Source: Lentibacillus persicus
Lineage (GTDB): Bacteria > Bacillota > Bacilli > Bacillales > Amphibacillaceae
NCBI RefSeq assembly: GCF_900112705.1
Contig: NZ_FOMR01000004.1
Span: 186,001-250,000, forward strand
DNA length: 64,000 bases
Reading direction: 5' to 3'
Numbering within the stretch: position 1 is the first letter of the stretch; each line of letters begins with the position of its first letter. The notes below the pieces were generated by a model. The model did no database searches and had not been told where the DNA came from. It saw nothing but the letters and a program-made list of their open reading frames with translations. Positions 13,376 through 58,886 of the stretch are shown piece after piece. The position numbers were made by a program, and so were the translations under genes.

Positions 13376-13930
13376 CTGTTTTCGCATAGATTGTTGTCAT
13401 TTACTTCGCCCCCGATGTAAACTGCGACCTTGTGAAAATTCTTCCTTCTGATGCCAGTTAGTTCTATGACACCGCTCCGGAAATACACGCCGCTTTCCGC
13501 GGGCGGCTGGTAAGCCTCCTCGGGCTGCGCCCTGCGGAGTCTCACCTATGCCTATGCTCCCGCAGGAGTCGGCGTGTATTTCCTACGCTGGCGTTGCACT
13601 CTATAATCTACTTGCTTGGTACTAACAAAAATCACGTGTGAATGTTGATTGGAGTGGAAGACAGTCGACTCCTGCGGTCGTCGGCTAAATGCGATCACGT
13701 CCTGTGACCAACGCCGATACTAGAACATCGTGTTCGTCGAAGCAACGGCTGAAGACCCCACAGGAAGCGCTAAGGTTCAAAGGCTAAGAACGCCACGTCC
13801 TGTGGCAACGCCTTTATGACCAACATCGTGTTGGCCCGAGGCTGAAGCGTTGCCCGCGGAAAGCGACTGCCTGGAACGGAAATCAACAAGCACTTTGTCG
13901 CAGTTTATGGGAACTGTGAAGGTTACAAAG
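13376..13930 (-). repeat. Polar modular repeat element, copy E2
   Basis: Non-coding element filling most of the 690-base gap between rpmB and spoVM. The left limit is an R-type end (GATGTAAACTGCGAC at 13414, with TTTTCGCATAGAT outside it) and the right limit an inverted L-type end (complement of CATAAACTGCG at about 13899-13909). Inside are a type-1 palindrome (13479-13583) and a large type-3 palindrome (about 13650-13880). The latter holds four mini-hairpins at 13695-13707, 13723-13735, 13793-13805 and 13820-13834. Open frames across it are repeat translations, not genes. Confidence 0.85.
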
Positions 13931-56268: not shown

Positions 56269-57057
56269 TTACTGCGCTGATTCATTACTGGATTCCTGAT
56301 TATCCGTATCCGCGTTAAATTCCTCAAAGTAAACACCCGCACCAATATGTATTACTCCCTTGCTTTCAGGGTCAAGCTGCGAAACAATTGAAGGATAAAC
56401 ACGCATCTTATCAGCGAAATTTCTGATAGTCCCATCTACCATGTAACCATCATTCATATAGAGTAATATTTTATGCTCATTTTTTTCACTTGGCTGCCAG
56501 TGTATCTCTGAGATCAGCTGCAAAACACTTTCCGGCAGCTTTTTCAGCTCCTCAGACATTTGATTTAAATAGCTTGTCTCTGAAAATCCCATGAGAAGCG
56601 GTGCGTTGCCATCAACAGTACGCTGTTTTACATTTTCAAGCACCTTGCCATCTCCTAAAACAGGGGAATAGCGGTCATCTCGTTTGATATAACCAACATG
56701 ACTGAATTCACTGACGTTAATATCAATTGTCCAGGGTAAATTCCGGTTGACTTCTGCTTTTTGAATGACCGGGTTTTCACTAATTGCCTGGCTAACCTCT
56801 GACTCACTTACCGACCAGATATTTGTTTTTTTTCCAATCGTGCTCGCTTCAATTATCACATCATCCTCAACAAAGGAATTTCCTGAAACTTCAATCGTCC
56901 TAACATAGCTTAATGGTGATTGAAGGTAGACAATGATGGAAATTAAAAAGAAAAAAATAGAAAGATAAAAAATCAGGCGACGGTTTGCCTTCTTTTTCCG
57001 CTCCTGTTTTAACTTTGGTATCCGATCTTCAATTGAAACGACATTTTTTTTCCCCAT
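56269..57057 (-). CDS. divIB: Cell division protein DivIB (FtsQ family)
   Basis: Bitopic division protein that stabilises the FtsL-DivIC complex at the septum. After a basic cytoplasmic tail (LKQERKKKANRR) comes one membrane helix (LIFYLSIFFFLISIIVYL), a POTRA domain starting VRTIEVSGNSFVEDDVI and the beta domain. I chose MGKKNVVSIEDR at 57057 (AAAGGAAG ribosome site), giving 262 residues; the 19-codon upstream extension reads into the tandem repeat. Confidence 0.94.
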   Translation of the reverse strand: MGKKNVVSIEDRIPKLKQERKKKANRRLIFYLSIFFFLISIIVYLQSPLSYVRTIEVSGNSFVEDDVIIEASTIGKKTNIWSVSESEVSQAISENPVIQKAEVNRNLPWTIDINVSEFSHVGYIKRDDRYSPVLGDGKVLENVKQRTVDGNAPLLMGFSETSYLNQMSEELKKLPESVLQLISEIHWQPSEKNEHKILLYMNDGYMVDGTIRNFADKMRVYPSIVSQLDPESKGVIHIGAGVYFEEFNADTDNQESSNESAQ

Positions 57058-57098
57058 TTCTATTTCTTCCTTTGTCTTATCAATATAATTGCAAACAA

Positions 57099-57610
57099 TA
57101 AAGTGAAACTTCATTCAGCGGGATGCTTTTCCCGCTGGATGTTAGTTGAACAGAATCGGACATTTAGGGACAGTTATCCGCCGTTCTTCGGCGGATTACT
57201 GTCCATTACATGCGGGATAAAACGGCATTATCCCATGCCGCTATCAATAGGTAGTTGAATTATATCATATATTTAAATGTTATACGTAGTAAACATCTAA
57301 CAATTTGATTAAAAATATTACATAAAGTGAAACTTCATTCAGCGGGATGGTTTTCCCCGCTGAATGTTAGTTGATCAGAATCGGGCATTTAGGGACAGTT
57401 ACTCGCCGTTTTCCGGCGAGTTACTGACCATTATATGCGGGGTAAAGTGAAACTTCAATCAGTGGGGTGCTCTTCCCCACTGATTGTTAGTTGAACAGAA
57501 TCGGGCATTTAGGGACAGTTACTCGCCGTTTTCCGGCGAGTTACTGACCATTATATGCGGGGTAAAGTGAAACTTCAATTAAAGGCGGAATTCACTTTTC
57601 CGCCTTTAAC
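57099..57610 (-). repeat. Tandem array of about 120-bp hairpin units with promoter-like junctions
   Basis: Array filling the gap between divIB and spoVE. Units start TAAAGTGAAACTTC at 57099 (A), 57323 (B, 120 bp), 57443 (C, 120 bp) and 57563 (D, truncated). A is separated from B by about 100 bases of unrelated AT-rich DNA. Each full unit has a first hairpin (CAGCGGG or CAGTGGGG stem), a constant middle GTTAGTTGAACAGAATC, and a second, nested hairpin inside GGGACAG...CTG(T/A)CC. At the D/C and C/B junctions the minus strand reads TTGAAG, 17 bases, TATAAT. No coding frame is credible. Confidence 0.88.
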
Positions 57611-58720
57611 CTACAATCTTGAGAATCTACTGATATTCAGTAAAATACCGGCAGAGCAAAGTGTTAATGTTAATGAGGAACCGCCATAGCTCAAAAATGG
57701 AAGCGTAATTCCTGTTACGGGAATCAAACCGATAACCACACTAATATTAATCATCACCTGTATCGAAAGCATTGACACGATACCAAGCGCCAGAAATTTT
57801 CCGTACACGTCTGGTGCTTCCAGCGCCACTTTTATCCCGCGCCAGAACAGCAGTGCAAATAAACTAATTACAAACGTACCGCCTAGAAAACCAAGTTCTT
57901 CAGCAACAATCGAGAATATAAAATCGTTTTGCGGTTCCGGCAAATAAAAATATTTTTGAATACTATCGCCAAGCCCTAAACCCATCAGACCTCCAGGACC
58001 GACCGCATAGAGTGACTGGATAATCTGAAAACCATCTCCCAATGGATCTTCCCACGGATTAATAAAGGCCGTTATCCGGCTTATCCGATATGGTGCCGAC
58101 ACGATTAAAAACAGAAAGCCGATGAGTCCAATGACGGCAAGCCCTAAAAAGTGACTCAGCCTGGCCCCTGCAGTAAAAATCATCACCATACATGTCGCGG
58201 CAAGAACTACCCCAGTTCCAAGGTCAGGCTGCAGCATAATCAGCCCGAATGCAGCAAAAACTAGAACGAGTGACGGGAGAAAGCCGTTTTTAAATGAAGT
58301 GATATATTTTTGATTGACTGAAAGATAGACTGATAAGTAAATAATTAAACCCAATTTCATAAATTCAGATGGCTGGATACTAAATGCACCGATTCCTATC
58401 CAGCTTTGAGCCCCGCCGCGTTCCATACCAATACCTGGAATAAGCACAATAAGCAGCAGCAAGAAACAGGCAAGTAAAAGCAGTTTGCTGTATTTTTTCC
58501 ATGTGTTATAGGGGAGGACAGTAAAAAAGAGCATCCCTATTAAACCGACACCACAAAATAACAACTGACGCTTAAGATAAAAAAATTGATCTCCGTATTT
58601 ATATTCAGCCCACACATACGACGAACTGTAAACCATCACTGCACCAACCACCAGTAATGATAGAATCACTGCGGCCAGTACTAAATCCGGTATATTTTTG
58701 GATTTAAATAAACGTTGCAA
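57611..58720 (-). CDS. spoVE: SpoVE/FtsW-family lipid II polymerase
   Basis: SEDS glycosyltransferase of about ten membrane segments that polymerises peptidoglycan at the septum and in the spore cortex. The motifs SWIGIGAFSIQPSEFMKL, QPDLGTGVVLA, NPWEDPLGDGFQIIQSL and GITLPFLSYGGSS are intact and closest, as I recall, to B. subtilis SpoVE. I prefer a TTG at 58720 with GGGGTG seven bases upstream, giving 369 residues as expected; the frame stays open to an ATG at 58789. Confidence 0.92.
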   Translation of the reverse strand: MQRLFKSKNIPDLVLAAVILSLLVVGAVMVYSSSYVWAEYKYGDQFFYLKRQLLFCGVGLIGMLFFTVLPYNTWKKYSKLLLLACFLLLLIVLIPGIGMERGGAQSWIGIGAFSIQPSEFMKLGLIIYLSVYLSVNQKYITSFKNGFLPSLVLVFAAFGLIMLQPDLGTGVVLAATCMVMIFTAGARLSHFLGLAVIGLIGFLFLIVSAPYRISRITAFINPWEDPLGDGFQIIQSLYAVGPGGLMGLGLGDSIQKYFYLPEPQNDFIFSIVAEELGFLGGTFVISLFALLFWRGIKVALEAPDVYGKFLALGIVSMLSIQVMINISVVIGLIPVTGITLPFLSYGGSSLTLTLCSAGILLNISRFSRL

Positions 58721-58886
58721 CAAAAAACACCCCACATCCAGTTTGTTTTGGAATAGGGGCTTTTTTGCTTTTATATCGCTTATCACCATTGAGTTTGTCC
58801 GAATCCAGGTTCACTAATTTTCAGCCAGTAACTTATTCTGCCGGTCAATTCAGTACCCTGTGCGATTTCATTACTTATACAAGCCC

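Follow-up and report, generated by a model that had tools for sequence, protein, structure and literature searches.

The window analysed here is a stretch of 64,000 nucleotides from Lentibacillus persicus (contig NZ_FOMR01000004.1, positions 186,001 to 250,000), in which divIB directly follows ftsW (positions 56269-58789 of the window). The genes murG and murB are not at this place; in B. subtilis both lie between ftsW and divIB. The gap between the two genes holds four repeat units, A to D, which were delimited in a preliminary description together with their stems, and direct reading of the sequence confirmed the units, their coordinates and the stems (Table 1). A full unit follows the plan (AT)AAAGTGAAACTTCA, hairpin 1, TGTTAGTTGAACAGAATCGGRCATTTA, hairpin 2, WTTACATGCGGG. 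On the opposite, transposed strand, which is the reverse complement of the strand used in the preliminary description, this reads TTTAT followed by CCCGCATGTAA, hairpin 2, the linker, hairpin 1 and GAAGTTTCACTTTAT. Unit length is 118-120 nt in the window genome and about 96-156 nt in G011, another genome of the genus. Terminal inverted repeats were not found in the unit, as 3 of 20 terminal positions match and the best 16-nt window reaches 8 of 16.

Table 1. Features of the ftsW-divIB gap and the related module elsewhere in the window (window coordinates).
Feature	Position	Strand	Basis or remark
Unit A	57099-57218	+	read directly from sequence; 73% identical to B (repeat comparison)
Unit A insertion (AT + unit), single, 119 nt	57098-57216	+	precisely absent from G011 (L317)
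ATAAA, left edge of unit A, common to element end and junction	57098-57102	+	sequence; flank logo of 107 G011 units
ATAAA target (reverse complement TTTAT), right edge of unit A, single in empty site	57217-57221	+	
Unit A hairpin 1	57112-57141	+	arms 57112-57122 / 57131-57141, one T.G
Unit A hairpin 2	57168-57204	+	arms 57168-57183 / 57189-57204, one mismatch in 16
Host hairpin and T run (GCGGCAT..ATGCCGTTTTAT)	57217-57241	-	like hairpin by eye in the other 11 genus genomes
ATAAA, left edge of B-C-D array	57322-57326	+	sequence
Unit B	57323-57442	+	model span 57324-57441
Unit B hairpin 1	57336-57366	+	
Unit B hairpin 2	57393-57429	+	two mismatches in 16
Unit C	57443-57562	+	head-to-tail with B, 93% identical (repeat comparison)
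Unit C hairpin 1	57456-57486	+	12 bp, perfect
Unit C hairpin 2	57513-57549	+	identical to that of B
Unit D	57563-57610	+	truncated copy, hairpin-1 half only; adjoins ftsW stop
RF01690 module	13768-13834	+	inside a different composite repeat (L078)

Upstream of divIB (window 57210-57320, minus strand), GTTTACTACRTR and a following TRTGATATAAT are kept in all 12 genomes of the genus (L316-L327). A short hairpin comes next, mostly of the form CGGCAT..TGCCGTTT, with matched changes in L327 (GTGGCAT..GGTGTCAC). This region reads as a promoter-like motif with a leader that is very short and possibly terminated. Unit A is inserted at the 3' end of the T run of the conserved host hairpin.

The stems of neighbouring units differ by matched changes, as had been claimed from the letters. 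In hairpin 1, B reads CATTCAGCGGG/CCCGCTGAATG (11 of 11 pairs Watson-Crick) and C reads CAATCAGTGGGG/CCCCACTGATTG (12 of 12); in hairpin 2, two pairs are changed on both sides between A (..TCCGCC/GGCGGA..) and the other two full units (..CTCGCC/GGCGAG..). The wholly different, perfect hairpin-1 stem ascribed to unit D was recovered as well: the stem is exchanged for TTAAAGGCGGAA/TTCCGCCTTTAA, with 12 of 12 positions in Watson-Crick pairs. The wobble pair in hairpin 1 of unit A is absent from the preliminary description. Wholesale exchange of a stem was also found in another copy (C12:333456), and some copies carry longer hairpin-2 loops.

A genome-wide alignment of copies had been named as the test of whether pairing is really kept. 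Of 33 near-full units of the window genome 29 were aligned; the other four have a long hairpin-2 loop (two units), run off a contig end (one) or measure 100 nt (one). Standard pairs fill 96.1% of the 839 pair cells, far above the 84.7±0.6% of shuffled alignments and the 24.9-45.9% obtained when the partner column is slid by one to three columns. Likewise, the covariation score is 0.349, compared with 0.138±0.009 for shuffles and 0.027-0.124 for slid controls. Both sides have changed in 18 of 29 pairs (shuffled 8.8±1.4), although the shuffle counts are not probabilities because the copies are related. The outer stem within the seemingly constant scaffold covaries too, with A-T against T-A in 7 of the 29 units at columns 9-56; the scaffold pairs GT..AACT with AGTT..AC.

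A blastn search of the 3.31-Mb window genome with unit B (E ≤ 0.01) matched 61 places, counting both full and partial copies. Refinement within 167 kb of window-genome loci gave 76 pieces in 42 arrays, and additional loci hold further copies with a third module, X, described below. The search of the whole genome and of related genomes with a covariance model, proposed earlier, revealed a dispersed family whose pairs covary beyond shuffles: the unit is present in 29 of 60 genomes, its own included, by blastn and likewise in 29 of 60 by the model. The hosts belong to Lentibacillus, Virgibacillus, Oceanobacillus and Aquibacillus, and within one genus the copies range from none (G001, G004, G009 and G010, by model) to at least 150 model matches (G011). 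The model confirmed 49 of 51 pattern-matched loci. It missed L136 of Lentibacillus jeotgali and gave no support to a single Legionella match to a 20-letter pattern, a match at about chance expectation. Viral contigs gave no match to an 18-letter unit pattern, and among plasmids one record, from Pseudalkalibacillus hwajinpoensis, matched in part. The units are thus a dispersed non-coding repeat. A literature search returned no title or abstract on this family, which is weak evidence given that most subscription journals lay outside its coverage.

Units occur at the divIB locus in one of the 12 genus genomes searched with nhmmer, that of the window. In G011, whose DivIB is 80% identical, the site is empty and reads GCCGTTTTAT followed by TGTTTT. 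The filled site on the minus strand of the window reads GCCGTTTTAT, then CCCGC...CACTTTAT, then TGTTTGC, so that unit A directly follows TTTAT and the insert is exactly 119 nt. When the joined flanks of unit A were aligned with G011, two small gaps appeared, neither at the junction. A second insertion, the B-C-D array, lies between GTTAA and GTAATATT and leaves six host bases unaccounted for.

The target was examined further in 99 G011 arrays, merged from 107 of 122 matches after 15 weak or opposite-strand matches were dropped; this set differs from the 99 G011 arrays of the orientation test below. An exact ATAAA forms the right flank of 52 of the 99, compared with 924 of 335,016 background pentamers (0.28%), and the other 47 comprise 13 GAAAA and 34 further flanks. 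Joined-flank queries found a match across the junction for 18 arrays. Seven of these matches fell in sequence of the copies' own tandems or arrays and 11 resembled empty sites, seven in two other repeat families and four at single loci (L199 gap-free; L188, L211 and L224 gapped). The clean case is a G011 copy upstream of a ruvA-like gene, for which Lentibacillus sp. CBA3610 has a gap-free match of 83% over 106 nt with one ATAAA. The two other families are themselves dispersed in G011 (TTCAAAAAGGAGGATAAAAAGGACCGAG.. and CACAAAATCCATAAACTGCGACG..; loci L190, L198, L228, L231, L252 and others; L194, L214, L238, L248) and occur both with and without the unit, at ATAAA. Insertions in the first of them share a similar edge and subtype, and may therefore be one event copied as a composite. 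Many copies have ATAAA on both sides, which makes a 5-bp target duplication possible; the left one may instead be encoded by the element.

Orientation was analysed in two complete genomes, G011 and G007. Among the matches listed, 107 of 150 in G011 and 43 of 77 in G007 gave 99 and 34 arrays, and 6 of the 99 G011 arrays lacked context, leaving 127. Genes were called by a simple ORF rule (80 aa), and 6 of the 127 arrays overlap an ORF of at least 80 aa by more than 60 nt, making the family mostly intergenic. Fork direction was taken from the located dnaA and an assumed opposite terminus; the sign of the local GC skew matches it in 86 of 93 and 33 of 34 stretches. It was found that 88 of the 127 arrays point opposite to fork movement (p = 1.6e-5). 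With both flanking genes directed against the fork, the share is still 15 of 16; it is 41 of 67 with flanking genes that run along with the fork, 13 of 21 between convergent genes and 19 of 23 between divergent genes. Relative to genes there is no overall bias (42 of 83 antisense). A logistic fit gave a fork coefficient of -1.20 (95% -1.88 to -0.75) and a smaller gene effect of +0.40 (0.12 to 0.76), and gene direction does not account for the fork-linked orientation. If skew alone defines the leading strand, 54 of 83 and 21 of 30 arrays point against it.

Among the 93 G011 arrays with context, 60 of 81 un-nested arrays oppose the fork, compared with 4 of 12 nested in the two other repeats, both nested groups having been defined after the flanks were seen. 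The fork-linked orientation means that the strand with TTTAT on its 5' side is preferentially the lagging-strand template. The GC skew of the window is -0.10 to -0.14 on the plus strand, which places its own units in the common orientation.

The kept pairing, the dispersal, the preference for TTTAT, the precise empty site of unit A, the fork-linked orientation and the lack of terminal inverted repeats together suggest that the units are probably copies of a small non-coding, non-autonomous mobile DNA element, similar to bcr1 or to PATEs, that is moved as single-stranded DNA. Its movement is predicted from comparison of sequences. The element would insert 3' of a host TTTAT and itself end in TTTAT, so that a new copy could land at the end of the previous one and head-to-tail arrays would build up. 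As in IS200/IS605 elements and the gene-less derivatives of these, a transposase that works on single-stranded DNA at the replication fork would recognise the hairpins. The stems would then drift or be swapped in sequence and yet stay paired, through either selection or palindrome correction. We infer the single-strand mechanism, the role of the hairpins as transposase sites and the stepwise growth of arrays from this combination; tandem arrays are few in G011 (6 of 99).

In its combined features the unit would work like single-strand transposition of the IS200/IS605 type, an analogy that does not claim membership. According to the available part of one source, IS608 and ISDra2 bind subterminal hairpins and have their target flanking the left end (PMC6006769), and elements of this family are described, in the text accessible to us, as having no terminal inverted repeats (PMC7290912). 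IS608 and ISDra2 also insert in the lagging-strand template, and their orientation recapitulates replication, as stated in the accessible section of PMC5371812; the polarity of the unit on that template is the same as theirs (PMC5371812, PMC6006769, both as excerpted). PATEs, the gene-less derivatives of IS200/IS605, likewise have hairpins near both ends without inverted repeats (PMC7290912, same excerpt), insert 3' of a fixed pentanucleotide and are oriented along replication. Unlike PATEs, the unit has no same-ended parental element in the loci examined and no Y1 transposase match in G011. The motif TTTAT is itself given as a left-end motif of solo-tnpB elements of S. islandicus in the portion available of PMC10640517.

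Among known repeats, bcr1 of the B. cereus group comes nearest by description. Okstad is said to have reported in 2004 that bcr1 has TTTAT at each end and that its positions differ between strains. The unit resembles bcr1 in having TTTAT at its ends, a length within 100-400 bp, probable mobility and a mostly intergenic location. Repeats of group A (bcr1-bcr3) are likewise short, gene-less, present in many copies and able to form stem-loops, and the mobility of bcr1 is tied to TTTAT in the available text of PMC6542083 and PMC2267715. The same part of PMC6542083 confines bcr1 to B. cereus s.l., whereas the unit family is found in the four genera named above. The fork-linked orientation and a nested RF01690 module are reported here for the unit, in distinction from bcr1.

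The enzyme was sought in several ways. At E ≤ 0.001, no Y1_Tnp (PF01797) match was found in G011 despite its copy number, and G002 (6 copies) and G025 (11 copies) gave no Y1_Tnp match either. None of 26 TnpB/Y1 loci from 8 genomes carries both unit ends; these loci extend about 1.5 kb beyond the TnpB domain in either direction, and more distant ends may fall outside them. As candidates for an IS200/IS605 parent, the IS200-type element of the window genome (L031) and 24 TnpB loci (8 genomes) were rejected, as their ends do not match. One locus (L271) has a three-mismatch match to one unit end, and at another (L275) an ordinary unit copy lies beside a TnpB gene, which was taken as coincidence. 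Longer, gene-bearing versions were not seen in G011 when end positions were compared by eye among the matches listed. REP/BIME repeats, which are associated with RAYT (TnpA-REP), are likewise mostly intergenic, palindromic, many-copy DNA repeats, but the units stand head-to-tail where REP/BIME alternate in orientation. The RAYT-like locus examined in the window genome (L032) was rejected too. The RAYT-like gene there (positions 900-1900; 260 aa, Y1_Tnp) lies between different repeats, GGGGGACGCCGATCCCGTCCCC, which form a separate REP-like family of its own.

The lack of a Y1 match in G011 and the TTTAT at both edges would also agree with site-specific recombination at TTTAT, in place of single-strand transposition, as the way in which a bcr1-like element moves. 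This explanation is considered unlikely, as recombination by itself predicts neither the fork orientation nor conserved subterminal hairpins.

Somewhat less probable again is that the paired changes come from replication itself, through template switches or the correction of palindromes, with no selection acting on the hairpin. Changes on both sides outnumber the intermediates in the 29 aligned units (95 pair cells, compared with 20 changed on one side and 33 unpaired), and adjacent tandem units differ by whole matched pairs, as such a process would have it. It explains perfect stems but not why the hairpin slots, the scaffold, the target and the orientation are kept across genera. The same process can act together with the mobile element proposed here.

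The preliminary description had left open a structured RNA and a stem-loop recognised in DNA. The pairing it pointed to is kept, and of its two readings the DNA one is favoured by the insertions, the fork orientation and the symmetry of the hairpin-1 mispairs. Given insertion next to TTTAT and a tendency to face one way relative to the moving fork, the units resemble jumping DNA more than a novel RNA. Among the hairpin-1 mispairs of 107 G011 units, G·U and A·C are about equally frequent (32 and 36 of 1,772 cells), whereas 18 distinct parsed tRNAs used as a control gave 20 G·U and no A·C in 390 cells. This strand symmetry speaks against a strand-specific RNA for hairpin 1. In hairpin 2 of the same 107 units, without the innermost pair, G·U exceeds A·C (64 and 26 of 1,159 cells), and when the set is restricted to its 72 units no longer than 126 nt, for which better alignment to the model is expected, the counts are 35 and 21 of 777 cells; this excess speaks mildly for a strand-specific RNA.

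A structured RNA, cis-acting or small and dispersed in the genome, would also account for the strong covariation and the small residual effect of gene orientation. The minus strand of the window runs in the direction of the operon, with unit A between the promoter-like motif and divIB. The inner module of many copies is listed by Rfam as an sRNA, and mRNAs contain 84 of the 165 bcr repeats of one B. cereus strain and 62 of 155 in another (accessible part of PMC3446304). Set against this are the fork bias in place of a gene-orientation bias, the symmetric mispairs of hairpin 1 and the lack of units at divIB in all 11 other genomes of the genus that were searched. The unit has no Rfam match at the cut-off either, the best being IS128 at 31.4 bits compared with the required 80; IS128 and rliA matches, sought in the whole window and in the feature, were rejected as far below their thresholds. 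An RNA as the basis of the family is accordingly held to be improbable. The mobile element may have an additional, RNA-level effect on neighbouring genes.

Fork-linked orientation is not known as the usual signature of a DDE transposase and counts against a MITE. Although many copies have ATAAA on both sides and bcr1, the nearest known repeat, is classed with MITEs in the available excerpts of PMC3446304 and PMC3733652, a MITE whose DDE transposase duplicates a 5-bp ATAAA target is highly improbable, as MITEs carry terminal inverted repeats that the unit lacks, and the unit edges can differ (G011 flank logo).

Module X, which lies between hairpins 1 and 2 in many copies, is the Rfam family Bacillaceae-1 (RF01690), with 11 matches above the cut-off in 10 of 10 loci scanned. 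The units at 57.1-57.6 kb are 120-bp units without the module, and no RF01690 match at the gathering score was found there. Among the best 30 of 54 above-cut-off RF01690 loci in the window genome, all lie inside composite repeats, half of them (15) in the unit family and the other 15 in a second type, which has a main version (13) and a related one (2), as called by eye from 45-nt flanks. These observations suggest that RF01690 behaves as a repeat module in this genome. The survey by Weinberg et al. (2010), which described the family, marks it in the portion available with a Y as an RNA. The second composite repeat with RF01690, present at window positions 13600-13900 and among L059-L088, occurs in a ACTCCTATGGGAACAGCACGTGTCC.. 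version and a related ..CTCCTGCGGG.. version. At 170.0 kb of contig C4 of the window genome (L052, 380-1120), an insertion of about 60 bases (CGAAAAAGAAAAGCAC..TTCCTTRTCCT) lies inside the hairpin loop of RF01690 with GTCCT or a near copy on both sides, giving repeats within repeats.

Matched changes on the two sides of a stem are commonly taken to prove that an RNA is functional. In this family they occur in what is apparently mobile DNA, and it is the evidence of orientation and insertion site that separates the two. Comparing fork with gene orientation and G·U with A·C mispairs provides a usable test for other repeat-like RNA families, and the data suggest that RF01690 merits re-examination as part of mobile repeats. 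The question of what moves bcr1-like TTTAT repeats also becomes testable, as the orientation points to single-strand transposition while the known class of enzyme is missing from the copy-rich genome G011. A broader extension is tentative and, taken as a whole, doubtful: halophilic Bacillaceae might harbour an entire class of modular hairpin elements without genes that move as single-stranded DNA at forks by means of an enzyme other than a recognised Y1, and the Bacillaceae-1 'sRNA' might be a passenger module of these elements, as well as of the second composite repeat, conserved for the use of its DNA hairpin in transposition and not a working RNA.

Other extra sequence is found in the ftsW-divIB gap of two further genomes of the genus, G007 and G008 (L318 and L319), as if the gap were an insertion hotspot. 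The gap sequence of G008 resembles the first of the two repeats that serve as targets of the unit.
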